Source: a virus
Length of the DNA stretch: 64,000 nt
Reading direction: 5' to 3' (one strand)
Virus record (IMG/VR): IMGVR_UViG_3300047325_000072
Coordinates: 1 to 64,000 of that record
Shown here: in pieces, positions 7,918-24,083 of the stretch
Position numbering within the stretch: position 1 is the stretch's first letter
Layout: each line of letters starts with the position of its first letter
Translations under genes and position numbers: made by a program
Notes under the pieces: generated by a model
Database searches by the model: none
What the model saw: the letters and a program-made list of their open reading frames with translations, nothing else
What the model was told of the DNA's origin: nothing

Positions 7918-8177
7918 AGTTACTGGCGCAGCGCATCCGGGCGACGACGACAATGTGCATCGAACAGATATTGCGTTCGCCGATTCGATTGGGCTTCAAG
8001 CTGGAATGGGCGAATCCTCACAGAGTTTTCTTCCAGGACTGCGGCATCCTAGAAATAGACGCAGATCAGTGCCTCGGGGTTGGGCATATCGCCATAACCC
8101 CAGGGATGTTTCGCGGGTATATCACTCACGATGTGGATGATAGTTTAAAGATACTTAGAAACCAATTGGATTATTGA
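7908..8177 (+). CDS. Hypothetical protein (89 aa)
   Basis: It begins at GTG 7908, overlapping the last codons of the helicase by 10 bases. The N-terminus is basic (LLAQRIRATTTM) and the rest mixed alpha/beta with no recognised motif. Coupling to the helicase is the main support. Confidence 0.5.
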   Translation: MDLKLLAQRIRATTTMCIEQILRSPIRLGFKLEWANPHRVFFQDCGILEIDADQCLGVGHIAITPGMFRGYITHDVDDSLKILRNQLDY

Positions 8178-8283
8178 TCCGATATCTCATCAGGAAAATC
8201 AAATCGTCCGTCAAATCCTACAAGCCGGAGAACGACACATGAATTATGGCCCCAAATGGCTGGTCCGGTGGGGGAGACAATCA

Positions 8284-8976
8284 ATGCCCGATATGATAAC
8301 CGTGTTTCAATTTACCGGCGCGGTTCTTTTTGAACTAGAATGTGCTTCGCTGAAGCTGTGTGTCGAAGCAGCTATTAACAGCGGCGTGGACCTTCGCGGC
8401 GCGAGCCTCGACGGCGCGAGCCTTGAACGCGCGAACCTTCGCGGCGCGATCCTTTGCATCGCGAACCTTCGCGGCGCAAATCTTCGCGGCGCGAACCTAG
8501 ACGGCGCGAACCTAGACGGCGTGTACCTTCAGGGCGCTAACCTCGACGGTGCGTTCCTCCGCAACGCGAATCTCCGCAACGCAAATCTCCGCGGCGCGAA
8601 TCTTGATGGCGCGATCCTCGACGACGCTAACCTCGACGGTGCGTTCCTTCGCGGCGCGAATCTCCGCGGCGCGAATCTCCGCGACGCGAACCTTGATGGC
8701 GCGAACCTTGATGGCGCGAACCTTGATGGCGCGAACCTTGATGGCCACAAAGTTAATGGCACGGTCGGTATCATCTGGGCCGGGCTCGCGTTCGGCTATG
8801 TTGATCGCGTAACACAACAACTCCGCGTGCGCGTCGGTTGCCGGAACAAAGAAATCGGCGAGGGACGCGCGTACTGGTCATCCCCAGATCACCCCGCTTT
8901 GGAAAAGCGGCGCGAGGTCTTGGCCGCGCTCGATTACATCGAAGCAGTCGCACGTCTGCGCGGATGGGGGTCGTAA
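8284..8976 (+). CDS. Pentapeptide-repeat protein, copy 1
   Basis: The protein contains about 26 A(N/S)LxG pentapeptides, which form a right-handed quadrilateral beta-helix, flanked by an N-terminal FTGAVLFELEC segment and a C-terminal cap ending EAVARLRGWGS. ATG 8284 has GGGGGAG upstream and matches the paralogues at 10844 and 11811; an in-frame ATG at 8239 would add 15 residues. Pentapeptide proteins can mimic DNA and bind gyrase, but no target is evident here. The stop overlaps the next start (TAATG). Confidence 0.8.
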   Translation: MPDMITVFQFTGAVLFELECASLKLCVEAAINSGVDLRGASLDGASLERANLRGAILCIANLRGANLRGANLDGANLDGVYLQGANLDGAFLRNANLRNANLRGANLDGAILDDANLDGAFLRGANLRGANLRDANLDGANLDGANLDGANLDGHKVNGTVGIIWAGLAFGYVDRVTQQLRVRVGCRNKEIGEGRAYWSSPDHPALEKRREVLAALDYIEAVARLRGWGS

Positions 8977-9172
8977 TGACGGACAGCTTGCCCGAACGAG
9001 ATAATGAAACCTATTTGGGAGATGGGGTCTACGCATCGTTTAACGGGTGGGAAGTGAGGTTCCCCGAGAGGACGGCGATCACTGGATCGTGCTCGGCCCG
9101 GACGAATATCAGGAACTGCGTCTATCCCGCGCTTCACAAACATATGGAGGGATAGAGTATGACCGCGAATAA
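8976..9172 (+). pseudogene. Small phage protein split by a frameshift at a C run
   Basis: Frame 1 encodes MTDSLPERDNETYLGDGVYA, then SFNGWEVRFP. From the CCCC at 9062-9065 the sensible sequence continues in the -1 frame as REDGDHWIVLGPDEYQEL and ends at 9172. Together they rebuild a common small phage protein (ETYLGDGxYASFDG ... GDHWIxLxP). In frame 1 the tail is nonsense until 9155. A lost C, a sequencing error or a programmed slip would all explain it. Confidence 0.65.
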
Positions 9173-9177
9173 TAACA

Positions 9178-9207
9178 CTTTACTTACGGCTAAAAACCCC
9201 CTATAAG
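9178..9207 (+). promoter_or_regulatory. Putative phage promoter P2 (CTTTACTT-N16-TATAAG)
   Basis: CTTTACTT at 9178-9185 and TATAAG at 9202-9207 have the shared 16-base spacing. It lies ahead of the gene at 9244, which has GGGGAG close upstream. The -10 falls in the loop of a hairpin. Confidence 0.7.
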
Positions 9208-9220
9208 GGTTTTGCGTTTT
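9193..9220 (+). terminator. Hairpin overlapping promoter P2
   Basis: AAAACCC at 9193-9199 pairs with GGGTTTT at 9207-9213 across a 7-base loop, followed by GCGTTTT. It resembles a weak intrinsic terminator or an mRNA 5' hairpin. It shares bases with the -10 of P2, so read-through and new initiation could be balanced here. Confidence 0.4.
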
Positions 9221-9243
9221 AACCGGGGAGCCTCGATAACCGT

Positions 9244-9837
9244 ATGACTGAATTAGATATCGAACCGGCCCCAGAGCCGAGCGATGCCGAGCGGGCGCAC
9301 TGCTCAGAGTTGGCGCGACGGCTACAGGCGGAGGAGCGGGAGGTAATGCGCGCGACGGCTGCTCTCCAGCAGGCGTTGGACGCGTTAAGGATCACCCGTG
9401 AGCGCGACCTTCCGGAGGCGATGCGCGCCGCAGGTCAAAGCGAGTTTAAGCTGCTCGACGGCACTCCGGTTAAGCTGGAGGATCGCTACGATGCTGCGAT
9501 GCTCAAGAGCGAGGAAAACCCCGCTGGACTAGCCTACGTGCTGGAAAACGAGGGCGAAAGCCTGATCAAATGCATCGTAACGGTTGACTTCGACCGGGAT
9601 GACCGCCTAGCGGCTCATGCGCTCGCGGATCGGATCCGCGCGGAGAGCAACTCGGCGAAAGCGGTAAAGGTCGCCGAGTTTATTCACCACTCTACCTTAG
9701 CCGCATGGGTGCGGGAAATGGTCGAGGAAGGGCGAGACCCGCCTTTGGATACGCTAGGGGCGCATCGCACAACCCGCGCACGGGTAGGTGCTCGCGCTCC
9801 GAAAACTGTCGATTTAAAAGGTTTAGTACAACGTTAA
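9244..9837 (+). CDS. Conserved phage early protein (197 aa), coiled-coil N-terminus
   Basis: The first ~70 residues form a charged heptad-like helix (ELARRLQAEEREVMRATAAL), then a small beta-domain (FKLLDGTPVKLEDRYDAAML). It resembles phage early proteins with a helix followed by an IxLxDGxxIxVxD segment, which sit next to the ssDNA-binding gene in podo- and siphoviruses. Function is not established. Driven by promoter P2 and followed 15 bases later by the next gene. Confidence 0.55.
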   Translation: MTELDIEPAPEPSDAERAHCSELARRLQAEEREVMRATAALQQALDALRITRERDLPEAMRAAGQSEFKLLDGTPVKLEDRYDAAMLKSEENPAGLAYVLENEGESLIKCIVTVDFDRDDRLAAHALADRIRAESNSAKAVKVAEFIHHSTLAAWVREMVEEGRDPPLDTLGAHRTTRARVGARAPKTVDLKGLVQR

Positions 9838-9852
9838 AGAGGGAGAAACTAC

Positions 9853-10683
9853 ATGCCAACACAAAAACATCTAACACCTAAGCCCGATGAAGTTCCGGCG
9901 ATCGACTACGGTGACTATGCGGCGGATGCCGGGGCCGGTCTGGAAGGGGGCCGGGCGGAGGAGTTGCTGCTTCCGTTTATCTACGTGCTGCAACCTCTAT
10001 CGCCGCAATTGGATAAGACCGGCGCCGGGTATGTGCCGGAGGCCGACGAGGGAATGTTTTTTAACACCTTGACGGGCCTAGTTTACGACGGCGCGACGGG
10101 GCTTGAGGGCGTGGCGGTCAACCGTGAGTACCTCTACACGGAGTGGAACCCGCGGGAAAAGGGCGGCGGTTTCAAGGGCACGCGCTCACCGGACGATGAT
10201 CTAGTGCGTCGCCTCAAGCGAGAGCAAGGGGCTTTCCAGGCTCTGCGCACGCCTGACGGTACCGACCTCGTGGAGCAGTTCAACCTCGCTATGATCCTCG
10301 GTCCCGCGCCGCTGTCGCTAGAAACCTGTTTTCAGGGGCTTATTCCGTTCAAATCGACATCGATCGGGGTTTACAAGGCGTTTTATTCGCGGGCCACGTC
10401 TTTCCGCTACAAAACTCCGAAAGGGATGATCACACCACCGATCTGGGCACACCGATGGCGCGTAACCACGGCCGCGATGAAGAACGATTCGGGCAGATGG
10501 TATAACCCCAAGTTTGAGCTTGTCAGCGGCCCCGAGCCGGCGCGATCGCTGCTGCCCGCAAGCGATCCGCTTTACGGCGAGGCCAAGCGGCTTAACGAGA
10601 TGTTTCGCGCCGGCCAGGTCCGCACCGACTATGAGGCGGGTCGCGAGCCAGGCGACGACGTAGACGATATACCACCGCTTTAA
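9853..10683 (+). CDS. Candidate ssDNA-binding protein
   Basis: The start has GAGGGAGAAACTAC upstream. The 276-aa protein is beta-rich (LLLPFIYVLQPLS, FQGLIPFKSTSIGVYKAF) and ends in an acidic tail EPGDDVDDIPPL. An acidic C-terminal tip ending in hydrophobic residues after DDIP is the hallmark by which SSBs recruit partner proteins (E. coli SSB ends DDDIPF). Position beside the helicase and early gene fits. No standard OB-fold signature could be confirmed, so the call is an inference. Confidence 0.45.
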   Translation: MPTQKHLTPKPDEVPAIDYGDYAADAGAGLEGGRAEELLLPFIYVLQPLSPQLDKTGAGYVPEADEGMFFNTLTGLVYDGATGLEGVAVNREYLYTEWNPREKGGGFKGTRSPDDDLVRRLKREQGAFQALRTPDGTDLVEQFNLAMILGPAPLSLETCFQGLIPFKSTSIGVYKAFYSRATSFRYKTPKGMITPPIWAHRWRVTTAAMKNDSGRWYNPKFELVSGPEPARSLLPASDPLYGEAKRLNEMFRAGQVRTDYEAGREPGDDVDDIPPL

Positions 10684-10782
10684 CCCAGATCCCAGGGATG
10701 GCGCCGCGGTTTCTCTCCCAGCCGCGGTCCTCTCCCCGGTAGCCGGTCGCGCCCGAGTGCCGGTGGGATATAGTCGGGCAGC

Positions 10783-10825
10783 GCGGACGGCGACCATTTA
10801 TGAAGGTCGCCGTCCGCAGTTTTCT
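10783..10825 (+). terminator. Strong intrinsic terminator
   Basis: A perfect 13-bp GC-rich stem, GCGGACGGCGACC (10783-10795) with GGTCGCCGTCCGC (10805-10817), has a 9-base loop and is followed by AGTTTTCT. It ends the transcription unit of the 9244-10683 genes, before the second pentapeptide gene. Confidence 0.8.
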
Positions 10826-10843
10826 ATCGAAACGAGGGATACG

Positions 10844-11692
10844 ATGAAAATCATCCACCGATTTACCGGCGCGGTTCTTTTTGAACTAGAATGCGATTCG
10901 TTGAGGGTATGCGTCGAGGCAGCCATTAACAATGGCGTGAAACTCGGCGGCGCGAACCTCGGCGGCGCGAACCTCCGTGGCGCGAACCTGGCCGGTGCGA
11001 ACTTGGACATCTCGGACTTACACGGCGCAGACATGCGTGATGCGAACCTAAATGGCGCGAACCTAAATGGCGCGAACCTGCGCGGTGTGGACCTGCGGGG
11101 CGCGAGCCTCGACGGCGCGAACATGCGCTGTGTGGACCTGCGGGGAGCAAATCTCGACGGCGCGGAGATGCGCGGTGCGGACCTCGACGGCGCGAACCTC
11201 GGTGACGCGAACCTCGACGGCGCGAACCTCCGTGTCGCGAACCTCCGTGGCGCGAACCTCCGTGTCGCGAGCCTCCGTGTCGCGAACCTCGGCGGCGCGA
11301 ACCTCGGCGGCGCGAACCTCGGCGGCGCGAACCTCGGCGGCGCGAACCTCGACGGCGCGAACCTCGACGGCGCGAACCTCGGCGGCGCGAACCTCGGCGG
11401 CGCGAACCTCGGCGACGCGAACCTCGGCGACGCGAACCTCGGCGGCCACAAAGTTGACGGGACTGTCGGCATCATCCAGGCCGGCATGCCAAACAACTGG
11501 CACGCGTTCGGCTATGTCGATCGCGTAACGCGACAACTGCACGTGCGCGTCGGTTGCCGGAACAAAGAACTCGGCGAGGGACGCGCGTACTGGGCATCCC
11601 CAGATCACCCCGCTTTGGAAAAGCGACGCGAGGTCTTGGCCGCGCTCGATTATATCGAAGCAGTCGCACGTCTGCGCGGATGGGGGTCGTAA
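10844..11692 (+). CDS. Pentapeptide-repeat protein, copy 2
   Basis: The 282-aa protein starts with MKIIHRFTGAVLFELECDSL, runs ~36 pentapeptides, and ends with the same cap as copy 1 (GHKVDGTVGIIQAG, EAVARLRGWGS). ATG 10844 follows ACGAGGG. A central part of less regular repeats (DISDLHGADMRDANLNGANL) is duplicated again at ~12.5 kb. Near-identical N and C ends with copies 1 and 3 point to recent duplication and gene conversion. Confidence 0.85.
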   Translation: MKIIHRFTGAVLFELECDSLRVCVEAAINNGVKLGGANLGGANLRGANLAGANLDISDLHGADMRDANLNGANLNGANLRGVDLRGASLDGANMRCVDLRGANLDGAEMRGADLDGANLGDANLDGANLRVANLRGANLRVASLRVANLGGANLGGANLGGANLGGANLDGANLDGANLGGANLGGANLGDANLGDANLGGHKVDGTVGIIQAGMPNNWHAFGYVDRVTRQLHVRVGCRNKELGEGRAYWASPDHPALEKRREVLAALDYIEAVARLRGWGS

Positions 11693-11814
11693 TGACGGGA
11701 TCGGTGGCCGGACAATTATTTGAAAGGGGCAACGGCGTGGAAAACCAGGGCGACGAGACCGGCGATCTGCCGCCGGGCGAGTATGCGACAGCGAGGCAAG
11801 GGGTCGCCCCATGA
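11692..11814 (+). CDS. Short frame between pentapeptide genes (40 aa)
   Basis: An ATG in a TAATG overlap with copy 2 opens a 40-residue frame that ends in ATGA overlap with copy 3. It occupies the place that the frameshifted ETYLGDG gene holds after copy 1, but the sequence differs after MT. It may be a linker remnant rather than a gene. Confidence 0.35.
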   Translation: MTGSVAGQLFERGNGVENQGDETGDLPPGEYATARQGVAP

Positions 11815-12464
11815 AAATCACTAACCGATTTACCGGCGCGGTTCTTTTTGAACTAGAATGCGATTCGTTGAGGGTATGCGTCGAGGCAGCCATTAACAAT
11901 GGCGCGAACCTCCGTGGCGCGAACCTTGACGGCGCGAACCTCCGTGGCGCGAACCTTGACGGCGCGAGCCTCTACGGCGCGAGCCTCGACGGCGCGAACC
12001 TCGACGACGCGAGCCTCTACGGCGCGAACCTCGACGGCGCGAACCTCGACGACGCGAGCCTCGGCGGCGCGAACCTCGGCGGCGCGAACCTCGGCGGCGC
12101 GAACCTCTACGGCGCGAACCTCGGCGGCGCGAACCTCGACGGCGCGAACCTCGGCGGCGCGAACCTCGGCGGCGCGATCCTCGGCGACGCGAACCTCGGC
12201 GACGCGAACCTCTACGGCCACAAAGTTGACGGGACTGTCGGCATCATCCAGGCCGGCATGCCAAACAACTGGCTCGCATTCGGCTATGTCGATCGCGTAA
12301 CACAACAACTGCACGTGCGCGTCGGTTGCCGGAACAAAGAAATCGGCGAGGGACGCGCGTACTGGTCATCCCCAGATCACCCCGCTTTGGAAAAGCGGCG
12401 CGAGGTCCTGGCCGCGCTCGATTACATCGAAGCAGTCGCACGTCTGCGCGGATGGGGGTCGTAA
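11811..12464 (+). CDS. Pentapeptide-repeat protein, copy 3
   Basis: A 217-aa paralogue with the same N-terminus (FTGAVLFELECDSLRVCVEA), about 23 pentapeptides and the same C-terminal cap as copies 1 and 2. It is coupled to the preceding short frame by ATGA. Fewer repeats than copy 2 show that repeat number changes quickly while the ends stay fixed. Confidence 0.85.
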   Translation: MKITNRFTGAVLFELECDSLRVCVEAAINNGANLRGANLDGANLRGANLDGASLYGASLDGANLDDASLYGANLDGANLDDASLGGANLGGANLGGANLYGANLGGANLDGANLGGANLGGAILGDANLGDANLYGHKVDGTVGIIQAGMPNNWLAFGYVDRVTQQLHVRVGCRNKEIGEGRAYWSSPDHPALEKRREVLAALDYIEAVARLRGWGS

Positions 12465-12475
12465 TGACGGGATCG

Positions 12476-12735
12476 GCGGCGCGAACCTGGCCGGTGCGAA
12501 CTTGGACATCTCGGACTTACACGGCGCAGACATGCGTGATGCGAACCTAAATGGCGCGAACCTGCGCGGTGTGGACCTGCGGGGCGCGAACATGCGGGTG
12601 CGGACCTGCGCGGCTCTAGGCGGTACGGCGCGGACATGCGCGGTGCGTACCTGGACGGTCGCGAACTTGAGCGGTACGAACCTGGGCGACTTGATCTCCA
12701 GGAGAGCACTTGAGTGCCGGTATTTCTCAAAATAG
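12476..12735 (+). pseudogene. Decayed fourth pentapeptide copy
   Basis: DNA immediately after copy 3 repeats the irregular middle part of copy 2 (AGANLDISDLHGADMRDANL) but without the N-terminal segment. From about 12594 the pentapeptide pattern (GADLRG, GADMRGAYLDG) moves to another frame, so no intact protein results. An open frame 12502-12735 is an artefact of this. I read it as a recombination remnant. Confidence 0.65.
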
Positions 12736-14007: not shown

Positions 14008-14233
14008 GCTCCGCGCCAAGGATCTATGCCGGGCTGCGGAGGCGATTAAACTCGCCTCCGCTTCCTATTTCACAGTAGTTCGTTTAATTGGACCTGCGAG
14101 ATACTCCCGGAAAGAGTTTCCAAACCTAGAAACGGCACGCGCGTATCAAGTTCAACTAGGATGTGATGAGTATGGAAGGCAAGGCATGATCTATGCGGTC
14201 ACGTCTAGTGGGGAGAGTATCTTTGTCCAATAG
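14000..14233 (+). CDS. Small conserved protein (about 77 aa)
   Basis: The conserved body runs AKLRAKDLCRAAEAIKLASA, then RYSRKEFPNLETARAYQVQL, and matches small proteins found in phages and alphaproteobacteria (RKEFPTLEEARA). TTG 14000 fits that N-terminus and overlaps the previous stop; ATG 13976 is the nearest ATG. It overlaps the next gene. Function unknown. Confidence 0.5.
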   Translation: MAKLRAKDLCRAAEAIKLASASYFTVVRLIGPARYSRKEFPNLETARAYQVQLGCDEYGRQGMIYAVTSSGESIFVQ

Positions 14234-15254
14234 CAACAAGCCTTTGTTGTCAAACCACTCCGCTGCCTGGCACCATGAAAAGTTTGCTGAATTTATCGAA
14301 CGCAAACTGGAGATTGGTGAGCCTAGTCCGCATTTAGCTATAATGGGCTATCTCACACGAAATATGTCTGAGATGGATCGGGTTTGGGCATTAGGGTGCT
14401 ATGCGGCGACTTACTGTTTACCAAGTGCTCAAGTTATCTGGACATATTGGACTTACGCCCAGGCGTGCGAAAATAATGTTGAACTTGCCTCTTGGGTGCA
14501 TGAAAACTGGCCTGGTATTGTAACGCGAACTGAGCGTCGCTGTGTGCGCTCTCCGCAAAAAATGTATGAGTGTCTATCTAGTCTGGCTCGTTGGGTAGAG
14601 TCAAACTTCAGCATGCTTAAGTCTTTATCTCCGGAATTAAATCCCGCCAATTACGATAGAGTTTGGGACTCTGTAAGTCAGATTAAATTTTTCGGACGCT
14701 ATATTAACATCCGTTTCGTAGAGGGATTACGTCGTTACTGTGGCATTCCGGCCATGTTGTACGATATCCGCTCGATAGGCGGGTGGTCGCCCAAACGGGC
14801 GTTAGCTCTTCTCTATCCAGAACAAATAGAGAGGTTGCTAGTCGATGACTCAGAGGGAAATCTTCTTACTGAGAAGTTAGCGCGGGAACTTTTAGAAGGA
14901 CTTCAACCCCGTATACCTAAGTTGAATGAATATATCCTCGCCGCAATGCTTTGCGAGTACAAAGCCGGTTATGAGAACTATAAACAGTATCCAGGCTGGA
15001 CGATAGACCAAGAACCCTTGATGTATGATAAGGTCTATGCCTATTGGGGAGATCGGATAAATAAGAATTTACTCTGGGAAGCCCGAAGGGCGTTGTTTCC
15101 TCCTGAAGTTCTTGGTGAGTTGAACAACTGGAACGGCACGCGCTGGGATCTTACTCATGTACTTCGAGACGAAGGTTATATTTGGTCGGATTTAACATAT
15201 GATTACGAACGGAGCCGTGGAAATTTGGCCGATCCCTATCGGAGAGTAAGTTGA
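14223..15254 (+). CDS. Amino acid:DNA transferase / thymine pyrophosphorylase-like modification enzyme
   Basis: The likely start is TTG 14223 (GGGGAGA 8 bases upstream), giving 343 aa. The sequence (VWALGCYAATYCLPSAQVIW, RTERRCVRSPQKM, QIKFFGRYINIR, GGWSPKRALALLYP) resembles the alpha-glutamyl/putrescinyl-thymine pyrophosphorylase superfamily with a DNA-glycosylase-like fold. Those enzymes displace the phosphate of 5-phosphomethyl-dU in DNA with a nucleophile such as an amino acid. It opens an overlapping operon with kinases, inositol-phosphate synthase and phosphatase. The nucleophile here is unknown. Confidence 0.65.
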   Translation: MSNSNKPLLSNHSAAWHHEKFAEFIERKLEIGEPSPHLAIMGYLTRNMSEMDRVWALGCYAATYCLPSAQVIWTYWTYAQACENNVELASWVHENWPGIVTRTERRCVRSPQKMYECLSSLARWVESNFSMLKSLSPELNPANYDRVWDSVSQIKFFGRYINIRFVEGLRRYCGIPAMLYDIRSIGGWSPKRALALLYPEQIERLLVDDSEGNLLTEKLARELLEGLQPRIPKLNEYILAAMLCEYKAGYENYKQYPGWTIDQEPLMYDKVYAYWGDRINKNLLWEARRALFPPEVLGELNNWNGTRWDLTHVLRDEGYIWSDLTYDYERSRGNLADPYRRVS

Positions 15255-15706
15255 TAGAGCGTCGTCGTGGCGTCTTTAACGTAATTGTGCCTGACAGGCT
15301 CTATCAGCGTGGTCAAATACTCACTTGGACTCTAGAAAGTAAGCGACGCGCGTTTTCTGATGTCGGGATAACAGCTTATGTAAATTTATGGCCTAAGTTG
15401 GACCCAGACCTTGCACTACTCGATTTGGATTGGTATTTCCAGATACCGTGCCCCCGGTCTGAACAGGTATTGGAAGCGCGAGTAATAAGCGCTGCACGTA
15501 GCGTCGCGAACTATCTTTCGGATGATCTTACACGCCGCGCTCTTGTTCTCTGCGAAGCCGGACGTACGCGTTCAGTTTTCTTTTGCATTTTAGTTAAACA
15601 GTGTTTGCATAAACAAACCATGCTGGAATCTCGCGCGAATGTGTTGCGCGCCGTACCTGGGCATGCGCTGAAACGTTTTCACGAAGAGTGGCTTCAAAAG
15701 CAATAG
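15251..15706 (+). CDS. Dual-specificity-type Cys phosphatase
   Basis: The 151-aa protein starts at TTG in a TTGA overlap. It carries VLCEAGRTRSVFF, the C-X5-R loop of the cysteine phosphatase superfamily (Cys101, Arg107), preceded by a hydrophobic strand and followed by a helix as in DSP folds. An upstream general-acid Asp may lie in the LDLDWYFQIP region. Families of this fold remove phosphate from proteins, RNA 5' ends, phosphoinositides or inositol phosphates. Next to an inositol-1-phosphate synthase, release of inositol from its phosphate is a specific, untested hypothesis. Confidence 0.7.
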   Translation: MIERRRGVFNVIVPDRLYQRGQILTWTLESKRRAFSDVGITAYVNLWPKLDPDLALLDLDWYFQIPCPRSEQVLEARVISAARSVANYLSDDLTRRALVLCEAGRTRSVFFCILVKQCLHKQTMLESRANVLRAVPGHALKRFHEEWLQKQ

Positions 15707-15717
15707 GGGGAGAACTA

Positions 15718-16776
15718 ATGGGAAAGATACGTGTCGCGCTCGTAGGCGTGGGTAACTGTGCCAACGCTTTGCTCCAGGGTCTTAGCTATTACGACGATCC
15801 GGGGCGTACAGCCGGTCTTATGCACCCTAAAATCGGGCCTTACACTGTCGGCGATATCGAGGTTGTCGCGGCCTTCGACGTTATTCGAGGCAAGGTAGGG
15901 CAAAGTCTGCGAGATGCGGCCTATGCCGAGCCTAACGATACGCTAGATTTCGCGTCCATCGCTGCGAATCGCGATGTTTTGGTTAAGCGCGGCCCCACGC
16001 TTGACGGTCTGGGCGTCTATCTGCGGGAACGCGTAGTAGAATCTACGTTGCCGAGCGTAGATATAGCTGACGCGCTTCGAGAGACTGGAGCGGAAGTAGT
16101 CGTAAATTATCTTCCGGTTGGTTCTGAGTTTGCAGCAAGGCATTATGCCGGCGCAGCGCTTGAAGCACACTGCGCCTTTGTCAACTGCATGCCGACTTTT
16201 ATTGCTTCCGATCGCGAATGGGAAGCCCGCTTCCGTCGCGCGGGTCTTCCGATCGTTGGCGATGATGTTAAATCCCAGGTTGGTGCGACCATCGTACATC
16301 GGGCGTTAGCGCAACTTTTTCGAGATAGAGGAGTCGGTTTAGATCGCACAATGCAATTGAATGTCGGGGGAAATTCCGATTTTCTCAATATGTTACAGCG
16401 GGATCGACTAACATCTAAGAAAATATCCAAAACCCAGGCGGTTACGTCCATCGCGGGAGTCACATTCGCGTCGGGAGATATTCACGTCGGACCAAGCGAC
16501 CATATACCTTGGCTTACAGACCGAAAATGGGCTTACGTTCGATTAGAAGGCCTGGGCTTCGGCGGTGCGCCGCTAAATGCGGAGCTAAAGTTAGAAGTTT
16601 GGGATTCGCCTAACTCGGCCGGTGTGGTGGTTGACGCTATTCGATGCGCCAAGTTGGCACTTGACCGCGGAGAGAGCGGCGCCCTGCGCGCAGTTTCAGC
16701 CTATTTGATGAAATCGCCACCCGAGCAAAGCGACGACGATAAGGCGCGCCATGACCTGGAATGTTGGTTACAATGA
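15718..16776 (+). CDS. ino1: myo-Inositol-1-phosphate synthase (inositol-3-phosphate synthase)
   Basis: ATG 15718 has GGGGGAG upstream and gives 352 aa, the usual length of bacterial/archaeal enzymes. It converts glucose 6-phosphate to 1L-myo-inositol 1-phosphate with NAD. Visible signatures: Rossmann motif VALVGVGNCANALLQG, VVNYLPVGSE, FVNCMPTFIAS, GDDVKSQVGATI (catalytic Lys ~185), LNVGGNSDFLNM, SKKISKTQAV and GPSDHIPWL. It sits inside the DNA-modification operon, overlapping the next kinase by ATGA. Such a gene is unexpected in a phage and suggests an inositol-derived modification group. Confidence 0.9.
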   Translation: MGKIRVALVGVGNCANALLQGLSYYDDPGRTAGLMHPKIGPYTVGDIEVVAAFDVIRGKVGQSLRDAAYAEPNDTLDFASIAANRDVLVKRGPTLDGLGVYLRERVVESTLPSVDIADALRETGAEVVVNYLPVGSEFAARHYAGAALEAHCAFVNCMPTFIASDREWEARFRRAGLPIVGDDVKSQVGATIVHRALAQLFRDRGVGLDRTMQLNVGGNSDFLNMLQRDRLTSKKISKTQAVTSIAGVTFASGDIHVGPSDHIPWLTDRKWAYVRLEGLGFGGAPLNAELKLEVWDSPNSAGVVVDAIRCAKLALDRGESGALRAVSAYLMKSPPEQSDDDKARHDLECWLQ

Positions 16777-17315
16777 TCATAAACATCCGCGGCACAAACG
16801 GATCCGGTAAATCAACAATTGCCCGAGACTTTCTGGGAGATGCGATCGTCGAATTAGCACCTTATCAGACTCCGAAGGGCGCTCGGAAAAACGTTATGGG
16901 TTATCATAATCGTGGCCTAGACCTTATCGTTGTCGGGCCTTATCGCACTGCTTGTGGAGGCTGTGACGCAATCAAGACCCAGGATTTAGTCAAGGAAAGC
17001 GTGCGCATCGCGGCGAAGAAGGCACAACACGTCCTATTCGAAGGATTTATCGTTTCAGGTATATATAGCGGTTATCGCGCGCTTTCCCAAGAATTAGGCG
17101 GAATTACTTGGGCTTACCTAGATACTCCGATCGAGGTCTGCTTTGCACGTATCCAGGAGCGCAATGGAGGTAAATCAATTAAAGAATACAAGGTTGTTGA
17201 AAAGAACAAGGAGATTGAATCAACCCGATTGAAGGCTAAAAGAGACGGGGAGAAGGTCGTAACGATCCCGTACGAAAGCGCGATTGAGGCTGTAAGAGGG
17301 ATGCTTTCGGCATGA
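16773..17315 (+). CDS. 5-hmdU DNA kinase-like P-loop protein, copy 1
   Basis: ATG 16773 overlaps the previous stop (ATGA). The 180-aa protein begins MIINIRGTNGSGKSTIARDF with Walker A GTNGSGKS (K13) and contains VLFEGFIVSGIYSGY and AYLDTP, followed by a Lys/Arg-rich lid. The pattern IRGTNGSGKST, a short insert and FEG matches phage P-loop kinases that phosphorylate 5-hydroxymethyl-dU within DNA. The acceptor could instead be inositol, given the neighbouring gene. Confidence 0.7.
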   Translation: MIINIRGTNGSGKSTIARDFLGDAIVELAPYQTPKGARKNVMGYHNRGLDLIVVGPYRTACGGCDAIKTQDLVKESVRIAAKKAQHVLFEGFIVSGIYSGYRALSQELGGITWAYLDTPIEVCFARIQERNGGKSIKEYKVVEKNKEIESTRLKAKRDGEKVVTIPYESAIEAVRGMLSA

Positions 17316-17860
17316 TCATCAACATCCGCGGAACCGGCGGCTCAGGGAAGAGCTACGTTGTACGCACTCTAATGGATCGCTTTAACGCGCAGCCAATCCT
17401 TGACGCAAGAGAAAAGATTCTCGGCTATGAGATGGACATCATAAAGACTTTTGTGTACGGTCCCTATAAGGCTGATTCCGGGGGCGTCGATAATCTTTCA
17501 AAAGAAGTTAGATCACAAGACTGTATAGAAGAAGAAGAAGTAAGATCTAGATCTAGGGACTATCACGTAATTTTTGAAGGACTGCTTGTTTCCGGAATCT
17601 ACGGCCGATGGCGAAATTTCGCGAAAACTGTCCCAGATTTCCGCTGGGTTTTCTTAAATACACCGCTTGAGCAGTGCATAGAGAACACCCGTGTGCGTCG
17701 TGTAAAAGCATCCCCCGATTTTAGTCTGAAAGCTACCGAGGATAAATACCGCAGTGTTCGCGCGCTCTACCATAAAACGCGCTACGATCGCCTAAACTCT
17801 TATGATGTTTCCTCGGACGAAGCGGTTGCGCTTATCGCGGGCTGGCTTACCACGCAATGA
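17312..17860 (+). CDS. 5-hmdU DNA kinase-like P-loop protein, copy 2
   Basis: A tandem paralogue of 182 aa with the same opening (MIINIRGTGGSGKSYVVRTL) and IFEGLLVSGIYGRW, but otherwise diverged. Start and stop overlap both neighbours by ATGA. Two kinases could supply successive phosphates, since the phiW-14 and SP10 pathways pass through 5-(pyrophosphoryl)methyl-U. Alternatively one modifies DNA and one a small molecule. A run of GAAGAAGAAGAAG and AGATCT repeats near 17527-17555 gives an acidic/basic loop. Confidence 0.7.
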   Translation: MIINIRGTGGSGKSYVVRTLMDRFNAQPILDAREKILGYEMDIIKTFVYGPYKADSGGVDNLSKEVRSQDCIEEEEVRSRSRDYHVIFEGLLVSGIYGRWRNFAKTVPDFRWVFLNTPLEQCIENTRVRRVKASPDFSLKATEDKYRSVRALYHKTRYDRLNSYDVSSDEAVALIAGWLTTQ

Positions 17861-18708
17861 TCATCGATCCTTTCCTCTATTGGATGCGTGAGCGCGAGGC
17901 GGTCCGACTGCGCCGTAAGAGCGGTCACCCGCCGCCTTGGACGGCGGAGCCGATCCTACAAACCTACCGATTTTGCAACGTTCGTCGCGAGGATGATAGG
18001 GTAACAGTTTGGATTCGTCAGCATATCCGCGAACCCTACGCCGATCATCCGGCGCTATGGTGGATGCTGTGTGCGGCGCGGATGATCAACTGGCCCGACT
18101 CTCTGGCGGAAATTATCGCTGCGGGCGCTTGGCCCGACCGGGCAAACTTCAATCCTGCCCAGATCGGAGAAGTTTTAGAGGCCCGGAAGCTGCGCGGCGA
18201 TAAAGTTGAAACCGGGGCTTATATGATCTCGGCGTCATATAAAACCGTTCCTTCCTGGTCCAGTTGGTCAAAACAACGCTACATCGCAGAGATTGTCTTG
18301 GGGCGGCTTTGGGACAAGCGAGAAGAGGTTTCCGCAACCCTGGAGGCAAAACACGCTTTCCTTACCGAGCATCGCGGCTGGGGGCCGTTTATGGCATGGC
18401 AAGCGGTCGCTGACATGTGTTTTACCTCGATCCTGGCCGCTGCCCCGGATCGACACTCCTGGGCAGCGGCCGGCCCCGGCACGATCCGGGGCCTGAACCG
18501 ACTGCATGAGCGCCCGGTAAAGCAAACACTCTCGCAGAAGAAAGCACTTGCGGAGCTTAGGGATGTCTACCCAATCCTGTTAAAAGAATCAGGTATTGAG
18601 TTTGACTGGATCGACGTGATGAATATCATGTGCGAAACGGATAAATTCCTGCGTGTAAAGAACGGCGAAGGTAGACCTCGCTCGCTTTTTACCCCTTTAC
18701 TTACCTAA
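17857..18708 (+). CDS. 5-hmdU DNA kinase helical-domain protein (HMUDK_hel-like)
   Basis: The 283-aa protein has YRFCNVRREDDRVTVWI, PALWWMLCAARMINWPDSL, VETGAYMIS, WGPFMAWQAVADMCFT, SWAAAGPGTIRGLNRL and the C-terminal DKFLRVKNGEGRPRS. These match my memory of the DNA-glycosylase-like helical domain linked to hmdU DNA kinases in hypermodified phages, probably the DNA-binding/base-flipping partner. Here it is a separate gene directly after the two P-loop proteins (ATGA overlap). This strongly supports the assignment of the operon. Confidence 0.8.
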   Translation: MIIDPFLYWMREREAVRLRRKSGHPPPWTAEPILQTYRFCNVRREDDRVTVWIRQHIREPYADHPALWWMLCAARMINWPDSLAEIIAAGAWPDRANFNPAQIGEVLEARKLRGDKVETGAYMISASYKTVPSWSSWSKQRYIAEIVLGRLWDKREEVSATLEAKHAFLTEHRGWGPFMAWQAVADMCFTSILAAAPDRHSWAAAGPGTIRGLNRLHERPVKQTLSQKKALAELRDVYPILLKESGIEFDWIDVMNIMCETDKFLRVKNGEGRPRSLFTPLLT

Positions 18709-18724
18709 CCTTTTCGCCTATAAA
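18695..18724 (+). promoter_or_regulatory. Putative phage promoter P4 (CTTTACTT-N16-TATAAA)
   Basis: CTTTACTT at 18695-18702 covers the last codons of the preceding gene; TATAAA follows at 18719 with 16-base spacing. It would drive the nucleotide-pathway genes from 18814 onward. About 100 bases of leader lie between it and the first start; I see no other element there. Confidence 0.75.
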
Positions 18725-18813
18725 ACTGCTTATGGGCATACATAAACGATCGATCGGTCGGAGCACACGCCACCCTATGTTTTCAAAGCCTTGAACTGCG
18801 AGGTTTGATCGCG

Positions 18814-19143
18814 ATGGAATCTATGGAACATGTCTATCTTTGCCACAAATGCGGTGGATTACTTACGCGACACAACGCCGACCCGGCATTATACGGTTGC
18901 GGCTGCATGTCGGGATATATTCGTGACTGGCAGTATCCAACGCCAGTCACCGAACTTCGTTCTATTCAACTCGACGCTTGCCGTGAAACGTTAGCCTTAT
19001 ATCAGCGTCAAGGCCGCGATCCTGACGGCGACCTTATTCGCAAAACACTTGCGCGTATCAAAGCGTTGGAATCGGCTCGGTCCGGCTCAAGGAATTGCAC
19101 TCGGGGCGAAAGGGCGTCTTGCGTTACGGGCGGCTCAAAATAA
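18814..19143 (+). CDS. Small zinc-ribbon-like protein (109 aa)
   Basis: ATG 18814 follows GCGAGG; TTG 18805 is also in frame. CHKCGG and GCGC are spaced like a four-Cys zinc ribbon at the N-terminus; the rest is helical (LDACRETLALYQRQGRDPDG). It is the first gene after promoter P4, leading the hydroxymethylase operon. No family recognised. Confidence 0.55.
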   Translation: MESMEHVYLCHKCGGLLTRHNADPALYGCGCMSGYIRDWQYPTPVTELRSIQLDACRETLALYQRQGRDPDGDLIRKTLARIKALESARSGSRNCTRGERASCVTGGSK

Positions 19144-19179
19144 CGACCTAGGGTCTTTGTTTGTACCGGAGAAAAGAAG

Positions 19180-20244
19180 ATGTACGTAATCCGCAAGCGC
19201 AATGCCCACCGCGCATTACCTTATGGCCTGCGCCATCTTAACGAGGTCGGTCAACCGGAGGGAAGCCGCGACGGCGACGTGATCGTTGCGCCGGGGCCGG
19301 TCGCTACGGTCTATGACTGCCCGGTGGAGCGCGTTGTTTTTTGGCCTGAACGTGACGCTAATCCGTTTTTTCATCTTTTTGAGTCGTTGTGGATGCTAGC
19401 GGGGCGTAATGACCTGGCTCTGCCACAGTGCTTCGTTAAGAGCTTCGACCGCTTTTCGGATGACGGTGTGACGCTGCATGGCGCTTACGGACATCGTTGG
19501 AGGAATTGGCCGGGCGATCAGCTTGACCGCATTGTCGATTTGATGAGCGGCCATAGTCGTACTCGGCGCGCGGTCCTAACGATGTGGGATCCTGACCGCG
19601 ACCTGTTCCCGGAGCAGGGCAAGGATGTTCCTTGCAACACGACCATCTATTTTTCCGAGAGTTATGGCCGTGCCAACGAACGCAATCGTCTCGATATGAT
19701 GGTCTGCTGTCGCTCAAACGATATTGTCATGGGCCTTTACGGGGCAAATGCTGTCCATTTTTCTATGCTGATGGAATATATGGCCGCGCGTTTAGACCTT
19801 GAGGTCGGAACGATGACCACGATATCGAATAATTTTCACAGCTATGCACGCGACTACAACCGGATACGCACCGGCGCCCTCGCGCTTTGGGGACCGATTT
19901 GGGATGATTGCCCTTACGCTAGGGAGGAGGTAAAGCCCTTCCCCTTGGTGGACGACCCTAGTAGTTGGGATCAGGAGCTTCTTTTCATGCTATCAGCCGC
20001 TGAGGCCAAATCCGAAGACCGGATACGCACCGGCGCCATATGGAAAAACTCCTTTTTCCCTCGGGTAGTGTTGCCAATGTATTTAGCACACGAGGCTTGG
20101 CGGGCGGGCGACTGGCTGCGTGCCGGTTACTACACGCGGGAGATTGCCGCGAGCGATTGGCAGCTTGCTGTCGCCCAATGGCTACTCCGCCGTGCGGCTA
20201 AAGCTGGCATGACATCGATACCCGAATTAGTTGGGATTTGGTAA
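19180..20244 (+). CDS. dUMP hydroxymethylase (thymidylate synthase family)
   Basis: The 354-aa protein has the thymidylate-synthase core: catalytic Cys152 in DVPCNTTIYF, the RSNDIVMGLYGANAVHFSML nucleotide pocket and a C-terminal WQLAVAQWL. YGANAVHFS is typical of the phage branch that transfers a hydroxymethyl group, giving 5-hydroxymethyl-dUMP, rather than a methyl group. An Asn (N190) in the pyrimidine-binding loop favours dUMP over dCMP, since dCMP enzymes use Asp. Ordinary thymidylate synthase activity cannot be ruled out by eye, but the hmdU kinase genes next door make hydroxymethylation likelier. Confidence 0.75.
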   Translation: MYVIRKRNAHRALPYGLRHLNEVGQPEGSRDGDVIVAPGPVATVYDCPVERVVFWPERDANPFFHLFESLWMLAGRNDLALPQCFVKSFDRFSDDGVTLHGAYGHRWRNWPGDQLDRIVDLMSGHSRTRRAVLTMWDPDRDLFPEQGKDVPCNTTIYFSESYGRANERNRLDMMVCCRSNDIVMGLYGANAVHFSMLMEYMAARLDLEVGTMTTISNNFHSYARDYNRIRTGALALWGPIWDDCPYAREEVKPFPLVDDPSSWDQELLFMLSAAEAKSEDRIRTGAIWKNSFFPRVVLPMYLAHEAWRAGDWLRAGYYTREIAASDWQLAVAQWLLRRAAKAGMTSIPELVGIW

Positions 20245-20753
20245 TGATAACCGACGACCTTCTCCGCGCGAGTCTAGGTACTACAGACCGGCTCGCGCTG
20301 CGCCTGCGCGGCGGCGGGGTGCGCCGTTATCATACTCATCCGGGCGTTTCTCCGCAGTCCGTAGCCGAGCACTCCTGGCGAGCCGCGGTGATCGCGCACT
20401 ATCTGTGGCCCGATCGATCGCACTTGTTGCGCGCCGTTATCCTACACGATGTTGCTGAGGCTTTGATAGGCGACCTTCCGGCGCCGACCAAGCGCATGGA
20501 CGCCGGTGCGGCATTAACCGATTTGGAAACCGAATACGAAAAATATATCGGTATTTCCAGGTTTATGAGCCTTGATTCGGAAGATCAAACAAGATTGAAA
20601 ATCGTTGATTACGCCGAGCTTTGTCTTCATGTGAAAAGCTGTCGAACCGAAGACGAAATCCTCTGTTACAACAATGCTAAGAAGTATGTAGTAGACCTGC
20701 TACAGAAACTCCCATGGGAGGAAGAAAGGATTAGAAAAATACTCGACATATAA
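20244..20753 (+). CDS. HD-domain 5'-deoxynucleotidase (YfbR-like)
   Basis: ATG 20244 overlaps the preceding stop (TAATG). It has the metal-binding set of YfbR-like HD hydrolases: RYHTHPGVSPQSVAEHSW, ILHDVAEALIGDLP with the HD pair, and a distal Asp in KIVDYAELCLH. Such enzymes hydrolyse dNMPs. In a phage replacing T by hmdU this could remove dTMP, as dTMP phosphohydrolase does in hmU phages, or trim other dNMPs. ~170 aa, normal length. Confidence 0.8.
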   Translation: MITDDLLRASLGTTDRLALRLRGGGVRRYHTHPGVSPQSVAEHSWRAAVIAHYLWPDRSHLLRAVILHDVAEALIGDLPAPTKRMDAGAALTDLETEYEKYIGISRFMSLDSEDQTRLKIVDYAELCLHVKSCRTEDEILCYNNAKKYVVDLLQKLPWEEERIRKILDI

Positions 20754-20763
20754 GACCCGTATT

Positions 20764-21342
20764 ATGAAGGGTATAATTCTCTTCGAGGGCGCCGATAGCA
20801 GCGGCAAGACCACCCTTGCACGCTACTTCGTAAAGAAACACGGCGCGCATTATATTCACGGCCGCGTACACAAAGACGCTTGGAAATGGCATAACGCCGC
20901 TATCCGCCGGGCGTTGCGTTTCCGGGAGCGGGGCGAGCTTACCGTTATCGATCGCAACTACATTTCTCATTTAGTTTATGGGCGCGTTTTTAACAATCAG
21001 CAATACGACGCGAAGGCTCGTCTTTTAGACGATATCCTGCGGCGCAACGGCGCACTAACGGTGCTTTGTTCTCCCGACGATCAACTCCGCCAAATAGCCC
21101 GCTGGGAGGAGGAAAAGGCGGCTGGGCGATCCGAGGCATTTGACAGGATCAAAGAGGTTGTCGCGCTTTACGCCGATCTGGCCCGCGGTAATGTCGCCCA
21201 TCCGGGCAACGGTTATCTTGATGAAATGATACGCTTCGGAGATTTCTCCGAGCGGCAGGATGTTTTAATTTACGACGTTCATAAATATTGGGGAAATCCA
21301 GCCCCGGCAGCAAGAGCTATATTGAGAAGGCTGCATGGCTAG
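20764..21342 (+). CDS. Thymidylate/deoxynucleotide monophosphate kinase-like
   Basis: The 192-aa protein opens MKGIILFEGADSSGKTTLAR (Walker A GADSSGKT), the classic thymidylate-kinase start. ELTVIDRNYISHLVYG holds the DR(Y/N) motif, and an Arg/Lys-rich lid follows (RWEEEKAAGRSEAFDRIKEV). It should phosphorylate hmdUMP or dTMP-like nucleotides for polymerase use. It overlaps the polymerase gene by 8 bases. Confidence 0.75.
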   Translation: MKGIILFEGADSSGKTTLARYFVKKHGAHYIHGRVHKDAWKWHNAAIRRALRFRERGELTVIDRNYISHLVYGRVFNNQQYDAKARLLDDILRRNGALTVLCSPDDQLRQIARWEEEKAAGRSEAFDRIKEVVALYADLARGNVAHPGNGYLDEMIRFGDFSERQDVLIYDVHKYWGNPAPAARAILRRLHG

Positions 21343-23359
21343 TCGCATCCAGCTTTCTTTGTTTGCGCCGCCTCTGCCTTCGGTAACGCCCGGAGAGGCT
21401 AAGGCTAAGGACTATTCGGACCCCTTCCTAGCCTACCACAAAGAGGCATTGGATGCGGCAGACAGCGACCGCTTGACCTTCGACAATGCAACTTGGAACC
21501 GCGCCGAGACGAGTGCAGTCGGGGTTGATGTTGAGAGCTACCGTAATTTCTTCCTGGTTTGTTTTACACGCTTTTCGGACAGCAAACGTCTGGCTTTTGA
21601 AGCATCTAATCGTTCGGAATTAAACCTCAAGGCAATTAAATGGTTGCTCAAGAAAAACCAAATCATAACTTTCAACGGTAACTGTTACGATCTACCGATG
21701 CTGTTGGCCGCGCTACAAGGCAGCAACCCACAGGAGTTAAAGCGCCTGTCGGATCGCTTGATTTCCGGGGAAGGCCAGCGTTGGTGGCAGGCCGAGCAGG
21801 ACTTCGATCGGTTTGGTATAAAATTAGACCATATTGACCTGATCGATACAAATCCCTCCGTCCGCCAAGGTCTCAAGATGCTCGGCGGTCGATTGCACAC
21901 CCGTTTTATGGTTGACCTTCCCTATGACCCCGACGCGGTATTAACCCCGCGACAAATGAACGTCGTTACTCTCTATTGCTTTAACGATATTGCTATGCTT
22001 GGTGATTTGTTCGCTGCATTGCGCGAGCCTCTTGAACTGCGTATTGCGCTCGGCGAGCTATACGGATTGCAACTGCGCTCGCGCAGCGACGCCCAGGTGG
22101 GCGAGGCGATCGTTAAGAAACGCGTCGAGATCGCTACAGGGCGCCGTCTAGGCCGCGCTGAGCCGCCGAAAGGATCTTTCTTTTTGTACGAGCCGCCTGC
22201 ATTTCTTTCTTTCCAAGACGAAAGATTATCGGGCCTGGTTGATAAGTTGAAGACAACTTCATTTACCCTAAGTGGTCTCGGAAAGCCTGAGATGCCCGAG
22301 TTGCTGAAAAAATTCAGCTATACCCGCGGCATGACAACCTACAAGTTTGGCATCGGCGGTATTCATTCCCAGGAAGCCCACCGGGCGCTGCGCGCCGACG
22401 ATGAATGGGCTATCGAGGACGTGGACGTTGCTTCACAATATCCTAATATTATCGTTAAGCTCGGGCTTTACCCTCCGGCCATCGGACCGATCTTCCTGGA
22501 CGTTTATGGCGAGTCGATTACCCAGCGGCTTGCTGCAAAGGATCGTTTGCTGCGCGATGCAACAGTAAGCGAGGCCGAATGCCAAACGTTGAAAGTCCTC
22601 GTTGACGGATACCGAATCCAGCTAAACGGGGTTTATGGAAAGCTCGGCTCGCCGGGATTGCTTCATGCGCCCAACCTTCTTATCGCGGTTACGGTTACGG
22701 GTCAGCTTTCCATTTTGATGCTTGCCGATATGGCGGAGCGGCGCGGATTGCCGGTTGTCTCCGCCAACACGGATGGCTTGGTGTTTCGCTATCGGCGCGC
22801 GCATCGTTCTATTCTAAACGAGGTACTAGCCGAATGGGAATCGGCCACGGGTTTTCAGACTGAGCGGACGCCTTACGAGGAGATCTATAATTCTTCGGTC
22901 AACACTTATATCGCGCTCAAACCTGGCGGAAAAGCAAAGGTCAAAGGGCCGATCGCGGACCCTTGGACCGAGGGCGATCTGCGCGGGCAGATGATGAAAA
23001 ATCCGCAAATGACAGTTCTGACGCAAGCCGTTTTGGCGCTTCTAACCAAGGGCGTGCCCCTCGGGGAAACGATACAGACGACAAACGATCCGCGCGCTTT
23101 CGTAACAGTGGTAAAGGTTGCGGCCGGCGCCCGTTGGCGCAACCATTATCTAGGCCGCGCAGTGCGCTATTATTGGGCGCTTGACGGCGACCCGATTATG
23201 ACGGCCGACGGCGCCCGGAGAATAGGGAAGACAGAAGGCGCGCGACCCATCCAGGAACTGGAGGATCGTGTACCTTCAGATCTTGATCGGCTCCGCTACT
23301 ACGAGGAAAGCGTTCGATTAGCCCACGATCTCGGGGTTAGCGAGGGGCAGATACGATGA
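21335..23359 (+). CDS. Family B DNA polymerase with 3'-5' exonuclease
   Basis: The 674-aa protein has an N-terminal DnaQ-like exonuclease (VGVDVESYRN, ITFNGNCYDLPML, YCFNDIAMLGDLF). The polymerase part has motif A DVDVASQYPN (D364), motif B with LNGVYGKLG after Lys, and motif C SANTDGLVF with catalytic Asp480 in NTDG instead of DTDS. It is compact, without an obvious large thumb or terminal-protein insert. It is the likely replicase of the phage and should accept hmdUTP. It overlaps genes on both sides. Confidence 0.85.
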   Translation: MASRIQLSLFAPPLPSVTPGEAKAKDYSDPFLAYHKEALDAADSDRLTFDNATWNRAETSAVGVDVESYRNFFLVCFTRFSDSKRLAFEASNRSELNLKAIKWLLKKNQIITFNGNCYDLPMLLAALQGSNPQELKRLSDRLISGEGQRWWQAEQDFDRFGIKLDHIDLIDTNPSVRQGLKMLGGRLHTRFMVDLPYDPDAVLTPRQMNVVTLYCFNDIAMLGDLFAALREPLELRIALGELYGLQLRSRSDAQVGEAIVKKRVEIATGRRLGRAEPPKGSFFLYEPPAFLSFQDERLSGLVDKLKTTSFTLSGLGKPEMPELLKKFSYTRGMTTYKFGIGGIHSQEAHRALRADDEWAIEDVDVASQYPNIIVKLGLYPPAIGPIFLDVYGESITQRLAAKDRLLRDATVSEAECQTLKVLVDGYRIQLNGVYGKLGSPGLLHAPNLLIAVTVTGQLSILMLADMAERRGLPVVSANTDGLVFRYRRAHRSILNEVLAEWESATGFQTERTPYEEIYNSSVNTYIALKPGGKAKVKGPIADPWTEGDLRGQMMKNPQMTVLTQAVLALLTKGVPLGETIQTTNDPRAFVTVVKVAAGARWRNHYLGRAVRYYWALDGDPIMTADGARRIGKTEGARPIQELEDRVPSDLDRLRYYEESVRLAHDLGVSEGQIR

Positions 23360-23613
23360 TAATCAATCAGGCTGTATTAGACGCCAATTGGGGGCCAGAG
23401 TATCTTGCCTCTATGGTTTTACTTCGTCGAGGTTCGGAACTTACTCTCTACTATTACAGAGATTTAGTTAAAATGTCCCGCGGTGAGATTTTGCCGTCTA
23501 GCGCGGCCGACAGCAAATCAATCCGCTCAATCCATATCGGCCGCGCTGCGGCAGCTTTGGTTCGGTTGCGCGAATTGCTAACCGTTGAGCAATGGGAGGC
23601 CTTAACAAAATGA
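23356..23613 (+). CDS. Small hypothetical protein (85 aa)
   Basis: ATGA-coupled to the polymerase and to the deaminase. The pattern LTLYYYRDLVKMSRGEIL then RAAAALVRLRELLTVEQWEA suggests a small beta-helix fold; phage proteins of this size often sit beside the polymerase. Function unknown. Confidence 0.5.
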   Translation: MIINQAVLDANWGPEYLASMVLLRRGSELTLYYYRDLVKMSRGEILPSSAADSKSIRSIHIGRAAAALVRLRELLTVEQWEALTK

Positions 23614-24083
23614 TCTTATCAGCGCAAAGCATACGCAAACTGTGCGTACCTGACCCTCTACCTCTAATTACACCCTTCTCTGAGCGCGGCGTCATCCGTG
23701 GCCGATCCTACGGACTATCGGCTTGCACCTACGACTGCCGCATTGCCCATCCCCTTGTTGTTCCGGTGGGGAAATTCCGGCTGGCTGTGACGATGGAAAA
23801 ATTCAACTTCCCGGCTTGGCTATGCGGATCGGTGCTGGATAAATCCTCTTGGGCGCGGGTCGGGATATCAGCTTTTAATACACATTTTGACCCCGGTTTC
23901 TGCGGCTATGCGACGCTTGAACTAGTAAATCTTGGCCCTGATCCGGTAGAGTATTTAGAAGGTGATCCGGTTTGTCAGTTCATGTTTCACTTATTGGATG
24001 AACCGACCGAGATGCCTTACGCTGGGAAATATAACCAACAACCTAAAGAGCCAGTCCCGGCTCGTTACGAAGAGGAAATATGA
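23610..24083 (+). CDS. dcd: dCTP deaminase / dUTPase-superfamily enzyme
   Basis: ATG 23610 (MILSAQSIRKLCVPDPLPLI) is in ATGA overlap. The 157-aa trimeric-jellyroll protein has ACTYDCRIA, SVLDKSSWARVGI (Ser/Arg of the phosphate site), the FDPGFCGYATLELVN active-site strand with Glu, and EGDPVCQFMFH. It most resembles dCTP deaminase, giving dUTP that feeds dUMP hydroxymethylation; a bifunctional deaminase-dUTPase is possible. Confidence 0.8.
   Translation: MILSAQSIRKLCVPDPLPLITPFSERGVIRGRSYGLSACTYDCRIAHPLVVPVGKFRLAVTMEKFNFPAWLCGSVLDKSSWARVGISAFNTHFDPGFCGYATLELVNLGPDPVEYLEGDPVCQFMFHLLDEPTEMPYAGKYNQQPKEPVPARYEEEI

Follow-up and report, generated by a model that had tools for sequence, protein, structure and literature searches.

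Gene content of the locus

The window, by which we mean the whole 64,000-nucleotide stretch analyzed, covers the opening 64 kb of a record, 95,558 bp long, from an uncultured phage. The record closes with a 127-bp stretch that directly repeats its start, as in an assembled circular genome; because this repeat is itself tandem-repeat DNA, completeness of the record is likely but short of proof. The five genes that a sequence-only reading had placed at 19180-24083, encoding a dUMP hydroxymethylase, an HD-domain phosphohydrolase, a dNMP kinase, a family B DNA polymerase (PolB), and a dCTP deaminase (DCD), were all present on the plus strand and in that order (Table 1). The hydroxymethylase and HD genes are joined by a TAATG overlap, and for this reason the HD gene probably starts at position 20244 rather than at the TTG at 20238. 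An 85-amino-acid open reading frame (ORF) lies between the polymerase and DCD genes. The same reading had the five genes expressed in one run from a promoter, P4, which we rejected, since sigma-70-like sites in the 12.5- to 26.2-kb region were no more common than in shuffled sequence (9 observed versus 11.2 +/- 3.4 in the shuffles). None was found in the gap at 18709-19179.

Table 1. Features of the upstream operon and the adjoining five-gene block (window coordinates)
Feature	Position	Strand	Evidence
ADDT/PUGT-like DNA-base transferase	14193..15254	+	PF18724, 49.6 bits (cut-off 26.2); model matches 8z2n
Dual-specificity-type phosphatase (DSP; CEAGRTR, CX5R)	15251..15706	+	CX5R; DUSP-like model
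myo-Inositol-phosphate synthase (MIPS)	15688..16776, likely start 15718	+	Ino1 1gr0; TIGR03450; PF01658
5-hmdU DNA kinase, P-loop, copy 1	16761..17315	+	PF18748, 54.4 bits
5-hmdU DNA kinase, P-loop, copy 2	17312..17860	+	PF18748, 39.4 bits
5-hmdU DNA kinase helical-domain protein (HMUDK_hel)	17857..18708	+	PF18723, 150.7 bits
112-aa ORF in gap before hydroxymethylase	18805..19143	+	ORF only; no Pfam match
Predicted dUMP hydroxymethylase (TS superfamily)	19180..20244	+	PF00303; phrog_5131; hydroxymethylase residues
HD-domain nucleotide phosphohydrolase (DatZ/YfbR-like)	20244..20753	+	PF13023, 42 bits; PF12917, 37 bits
P-loop kinase, thymidylate-kinase-like; candidate hmdUMP kinase	20764..21342	+	phrog_761, E 5e-10
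Family B DNA polymerase, motif C NTDG	21335..23359	+	phrog_1252, E 5e-146
dCTP deaminase-family enzyme	23592..24083	+	PF22769, 65 bits; TIGR02274, 81 bits

Elsewhere in the window, a phage-encoded RtcB RNA ligase (PF01139, 432 bits) lies at 3371-4603, and several tandem pentapeptide-repeat-like ORFs, possibly DNA mimics, occupy very repetitive GC-rich DNA at 8239-12735. Beyond the window, at about 84.6 to 93.7 kb of the record (L006:4647-13674), a cluster encodes E1 dehydrogenase and transketolase-type domains, a DegT aminotransferase, an NAD epimerase, a B12-radical SAM protein, an NTP transferase, a GHMP kinase, and a transposase-like gene, and it resembles a sugar-nucleotide pathway.

The thymidylate synthase-like enzyme

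The thymidylate synthase (TS)-like enzyme shared 45 to 46% identity over its full length with the enzymes of phages M6 (45%) and AIIMS-Plu-RaNi, and it matched those of SPO1 and SP8 better than cellular-type TS. Alignment with Escherichia coli ThyA showed that the nucleophile is retained, as is the dUMP site with its Asn177, and that the enzyme has Asp (Asp149) in place of Leu143, Asn in place of His147, and Phe in place of Trp83. By these last three residues it falls outside ThyA, as it does by score, its best NCBI TS equivalog reaching 74 bits against a cut-off of 175. The pattern was nearly invariant among 90 relatives: the equivalents of Cys146, Arg166, Ser167, Asp169, Asn177, His207, and Tyr209 (E. 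coli ThyA numbering) were kept in all of them, as were Asn at the His147 position and Phe or Tyr at the Trp83 position, and Asp at the Leu143 position was found in 89. SPO1 gp29, phiW-14 gp230, and Det7 gp108 carry the same Asp and Asn.

The T4 dCMP hydroxymethylase, whose Val85 and Asp145 have been contrasted with Trp83 and Leu143 of E. coli TS, uses Asp145 to activate the water that becomes the hydroxyl group, and its D145N mutant is inactive (PMC6400193). Because the window Asp is equivalent to T4 Asp145, we counted it as water activating, while the presence of Asn177 where T4 has Asp179 indicates dUMP, not dCMP, as the probable substrate. The gene neighborhood was equally consistent, with HMUDK_hel present at 45 of 47 hydroxymethylase loci with full flanks, these being viral contigs picked by the hydroxymethylase gene only. 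In the TS tree the deep forks were weak, and the row for the Cr30 TS was disregarded. Thus, the proposal that the TS-like protein is a dUMP hydroxymethylase is well supported, both by its residues and by the 5-hmdU kinase/transferase operon beside it.

The other precursor genes and the polymerase

The HD protein retains the metal ligands H45, H70, D71, and D124 as well as the phosphate-binding Lys in a GDLPAPTK motif (GDxPxPxK), and its best match in the PDB was DatZ (E 4e-4). Since dTTPase activity is on record for phiW-14 infection (PMC5977210) and DatZ of cyanophage S-2L clears dATP (PMC8065100), a fair guess is that the HD protein probably lowers the pool of competing thymidine nucleotides. 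An HD gene was common at hydroxymethylase loci, though short of universal (56 of 80), and none was recognized between the hydroxymethylase and polymerase genes of the nearest relative, contig L013. The dNMP kinase was thymidylate-kinase-like, but with weak scores (PF02223, 25 bits against a cut-off of 27; TIGR00041 likewise weak), and it had no relative among the same 80 loci. Neither gene, therefore, appears essential to the module.

In the deaminase, the catalytic Ser, Arg, and Glu positions were kept in the alignment, with a TIGR02274 score of 80.9 bits against a cut-off of 92.8. No dUTPase (PF00692) was found in the whole 95.6-kb record. The supply line to hmdUTP had been described as complete, which is too strong, because the conversions of dUTP to dUMP and of hmdUDP to hmdUTP would be left to the host or, for dUMP, to a bifunctional deaminase.

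The polymerase matched phrog_1252 along its full length (residues 51-669), with VVSANTDG as motif C. The sequence-only reading had linked NTDG to templates with bulky bases; NTDG was, however, present in every aligned relative, among them those of five complete phages (RcGingersnap, phiAxp-2, Kharn, Halfdan, and AH2) in which TS and HMUDK_hel are absent over the whole records. We therefore ruled out an adaptation to bulky bases and regard NTDG as a trait of the polymerase family that is uninformative on this point. We also rejected the M6 polymerase as a homologue of the window PolB, as it showed 15 to 17% identity to the PolB set and lacked the conserved motifs; family A is the published polymerase type for the M6-like module (PMC9599517). 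An M6-type polymerase fills this slot in M6-like modules and in most related contigs, and PolB was shared by L013 only among the 80 hydroxymethylase loci.

The upstream operon

Upstream of the five genes, the operon reads ADDT, DSP, MIPS, two 5-hmdU P-loop kinases, and HMUDK_hel. The AlphaFold2 model of ADDT (pLDDT 87) found as its best PDB match the 5-phosphomethyl-dU (5-PmdU) glycinyltransferase of PaMx11, 8z2n (probability 1.00, E 0.016, TM 0.52, 17% identity), and a profile comparison tied it to the M6-type ADDT (probability 82%, E 1e-5), from which it forms a separate clade. The CX5R motif of DSP was present in 10 of 10 relatives, and the PDB matches of its model (pLDDT 91.5) were DUSPs. 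MIPS aligned with Mycobacterium tuberculosis Ino1 (1gr0) at 450 bits over 350 residues and scored 489 bits with TIGR03450, which is under the cut-off of 638, and 114 bits with PF01658, the Ino1 domain; the lysines in its KKxSK, DxK, and KxPP stretches, the active-site lysines of the family, were invariant in the alignment.

The core of the M6-type cluster (PF18748 twice, PF18723, PF18724, and PF00303) was present with every domain over its cut-off. Neither PLP nor radical SAM tailoring enzymes occurred in the operon at 14.2 to 18.7 kb, where all genes belong to other families. The two P-loop kinases form a tandem pair at 16761-17860; in other contigs the copy number is two or three, and the copies perhaps differ in sequence preference.

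A proposed hypermodification pathway

We assign a probability of roughly 85% to the proposal that the genes at 19180-24083 form the precursor arm of a system for thymine hypermodification. The dCTP deaminase would convert dCTP to dUTP, or to dUMP if it is bifunctional; otherwise, a host dUTPase would make dUMP from dUTP. The TS-like enzyme would then form 5-hydroxymethyl-dUMP from dUMP and methylene-THF, and the dNMP kinase together with the host NDP kinase would carry hmdUMP on to hmdUTP, which the phage PolB would put in place of much or all T while the HD protein probably cuts the competing thymidine-nucleotide pool. Within DNA, the 5-hmdU kinases would add a phosphate to hmdU, and the ADDT/PUGT-like transferase would let a nucleophile displace that phosphate, most likely inositol provided by the inositol-phosphate synthase that the phage encodes; the DSP phosphatase would work alongside the transferase. 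We infer every enzymatic step in the window phage, above all the one involving inositol, from genes, their order, conserved residues, associations, and predicted folds.

Association of ADDT, DSP, and MIPS in other phages

Contigs fetched only by the window type of ADDT gave 41 nonredundant loci, and at 40 of these DSP adjoined ADDT or was fused to it. Single-frame ADDT-DSP fusions of 625 and 503 amino acids occurred in two contig groups (L139:9824, L140:9824, L158:9974, and L159:9974), suggesting that both proteins may act on the same substrate. DSP was also found at ADDT loci without MIPS (L142-L146, L151, L141, L171, L167, L172, L174, and L182), which weakens the idea of DSP as a MIPS-tied phosphatase for inositol only. 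At such loci, radical-SAM-like, FkbM-type, or glycosyltransferase-like neighbors, read by eye, are candidate suppliers.

This distribution, together with the fusions, would also fit a DSP that turns 5-phosphomethyl-dU back into hmdU or removes phosphates left unreacted, and that dephosphorylates no inositol phosphate, a role whose chances we regard as about even. Against it, the M6-type ADDT loci had neither DSP nor MIPS (0 of 19), so that nothing there calls for a general reset, and the phosphate ester made by MIPS must be removed if free inositol is the nucleophile.

MIPS was found at 22 of the 31 ADDT loci with 2.5 kb of upstream DNA; against the 19 M6-type loci, this gives a Fisher value of 2e-7, which is approximate since the sequences are related. 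The MIPS end was no more than 130 bases from ADDT, or overlapped it, at 17 of 26 loci. When contigs were instead selected by MIPS, ADDT-like genes adjoined MIPS or lay in its cluster except where the contig ended, and kinases were present as well. Finally, the MIPS-associated ADDTs of hmdU phages formed one clade (support 100/98), and the Cr30-type ADDTs formed another. From this recurrent association, the close spacing, and the separate ADDT clade, we conclude that MIPS would supply the group to be transferred, the simplest candidates being inositol and inositol phosphate. Taken further, inositol or inositol phosphate may be joined to 5-phosphomethyl-dU by the ADDT/PUGT-like transferase and DSP, starting from phage-made myo-inositol phosphate, giving a cyclitol-bearing base common to dozens of uncultured phages; we hold the odds of this specific proposal to be balanced. 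No mention of inositol in phage DNA was found in the open-access literature.

Two phages with MIPS depart from the common arrangement. Stenotrophomonas phage Moby (L002) is the exception among isolates, having MIPS beside 7-deazaguanine genes at 8022-9275 and no TS, HMUDK_hel, or ADDT in its genome. Phage Cr30 (L003) has ADDT-MIPS-kinase at 5735-9179, and the idea of Cr30 as a simple hmdU phage was unsupported, as it lacks HMUDK_hel and its only TS scores as canonical.

The occurrence of MIPS without ADDT in Moby, and the fact that the solved relative of ADDT is a glycinyltransferase, would suit an alternative in which hmdU is made and phosphorylated but receives an amino acid, as in M6 and PaMx11, with MIPS serving, e.g., surface or lipid inositol. 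We consider this less likely, given the proximity of MIPS to ADDT, the fact that M6-type ADDTs never occur with MIPS whereas the MIPS-associated ADDTs of hmdU phages have a clade of their own, and a window operon with no gene in place of the M6 PLP and radical SAM enzymes. Far less probable still is an ordinary thymidylate synthase within a plain nucleotide-metabolism cassette that raises dTTP: the window enzyme does belong to PF00303, and ThyA accompanied by a dCMP deaminase is known from phages such as PaMx74, but the relatives match hydroxymethylases at the equivalents of E. coli residues 83, 143, and 147, the score is far under the NCBI TS equivalog cut-off, and the gene is immediately preceded by a 5-hmdU kinase operon.

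Extent of thymine replacement

Returning to the hypermodification pathway, the earlier prediction of wholesale T replacement is plausible for the replication stage, since M6, ViI, and phiW-14 have been proposed to replicate from a pool of hmdUTP that takes the place of all T (PMC6449724), but it does not extend to mature DNA, in which the relatives keep about half or more of their T. Thus, mature ViI DNA has 43% hypermodified 5-NeOmdU, 7% hmdU, and 50% T, and phiW-14 DNA has about 47% putrescinyl-T (PMC6449724); modification of M6 DNA is put at about 30% (PMC11946847) or, for M6 and ViI, at 30 to 40% (PMC9599517). We would expect high but partial modification in the window phage, its level probably being set by the sequence preference of the kinases.

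Comparison with known systems

The closest parallel is the 5-NedU cluster of Pseudomonas phage M6 (Yuavirus), which, like the window, has the kinase, HMUDK_hel, hydroxymethylase, HD, and polymerase genes in order, followed by a deaminase, with ADDT upstream; M6 and AIIMS-Plu-RaNi share the order kinase-HMUDK_hel-TS-HD-Pol-dCMP deaminase. M6 differs in its nonhomologous polymerase, which is the module's other type (family A), in having a dCMP deaminase, in lacking a homologue of the dNMP kinase at the locus, and in carrying PLP and radical SAM enzymes where the window phage has MIPS and DSP. The same module logic has been published for HTVC023P-type pelagiphages as a TS, aG/PT-PPlase1, 5'-deoxynucleotidase, and PolA module; in contrast to the window it has PolA, and the passages of that source describing it mention no MIPS, DSP, or dCTP deaminase (PMC9599517).

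Individual proteins have parallels elsewhere. SPO1 gp29 and phiW-14 gp230 share the Asp and Asn signature at no more than 36% identity to the window enzyme, and phiW-14, like the window, has a dNMP kinase next to the hydroxymethylase, together with a dUTPase, which was not found in the window record. PaMx11 gp46 (PUGT, the 5-phosphomethyl-dU glycinyltransferase of 8z2n), which the window ADDT matches best in structure, uses glycine as its own nucleophile. S-2L DatZ, a dATP triphosphohydrolase (PMC8065100), resembles the HD protein in metal ligands, in GDxPxPxK, and in pool-cleaning logic, with its Trp20 being Tyr in the window protein. M. tuberculosis Ino1 shares the active-site stretches of the window MIPS, which is, in this case, phage encoded and inside a DNA-modification operon.

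The supply module therefore adds a new member to a published module, varying in its PolB and dCTP deaminase, and the modification arm is, within the open-access literature, a hitherto undescribed variant of 5-hmdU-derived hypermodification. Known in itself, the supply module has its main value as good evidence for hmdU in the DNA of the window phage, which makes the upstream operon interpretable. Overall, the hmdU/5-PmdU chemistry has apparently been replumbed with interchangeable group suppliers, MIPS here and radical SAM, FkbM-type, or glycosyltransferase-like proteins elsewhere; if inositol is indeed the attached group, it would represent a new modification class for DNA.
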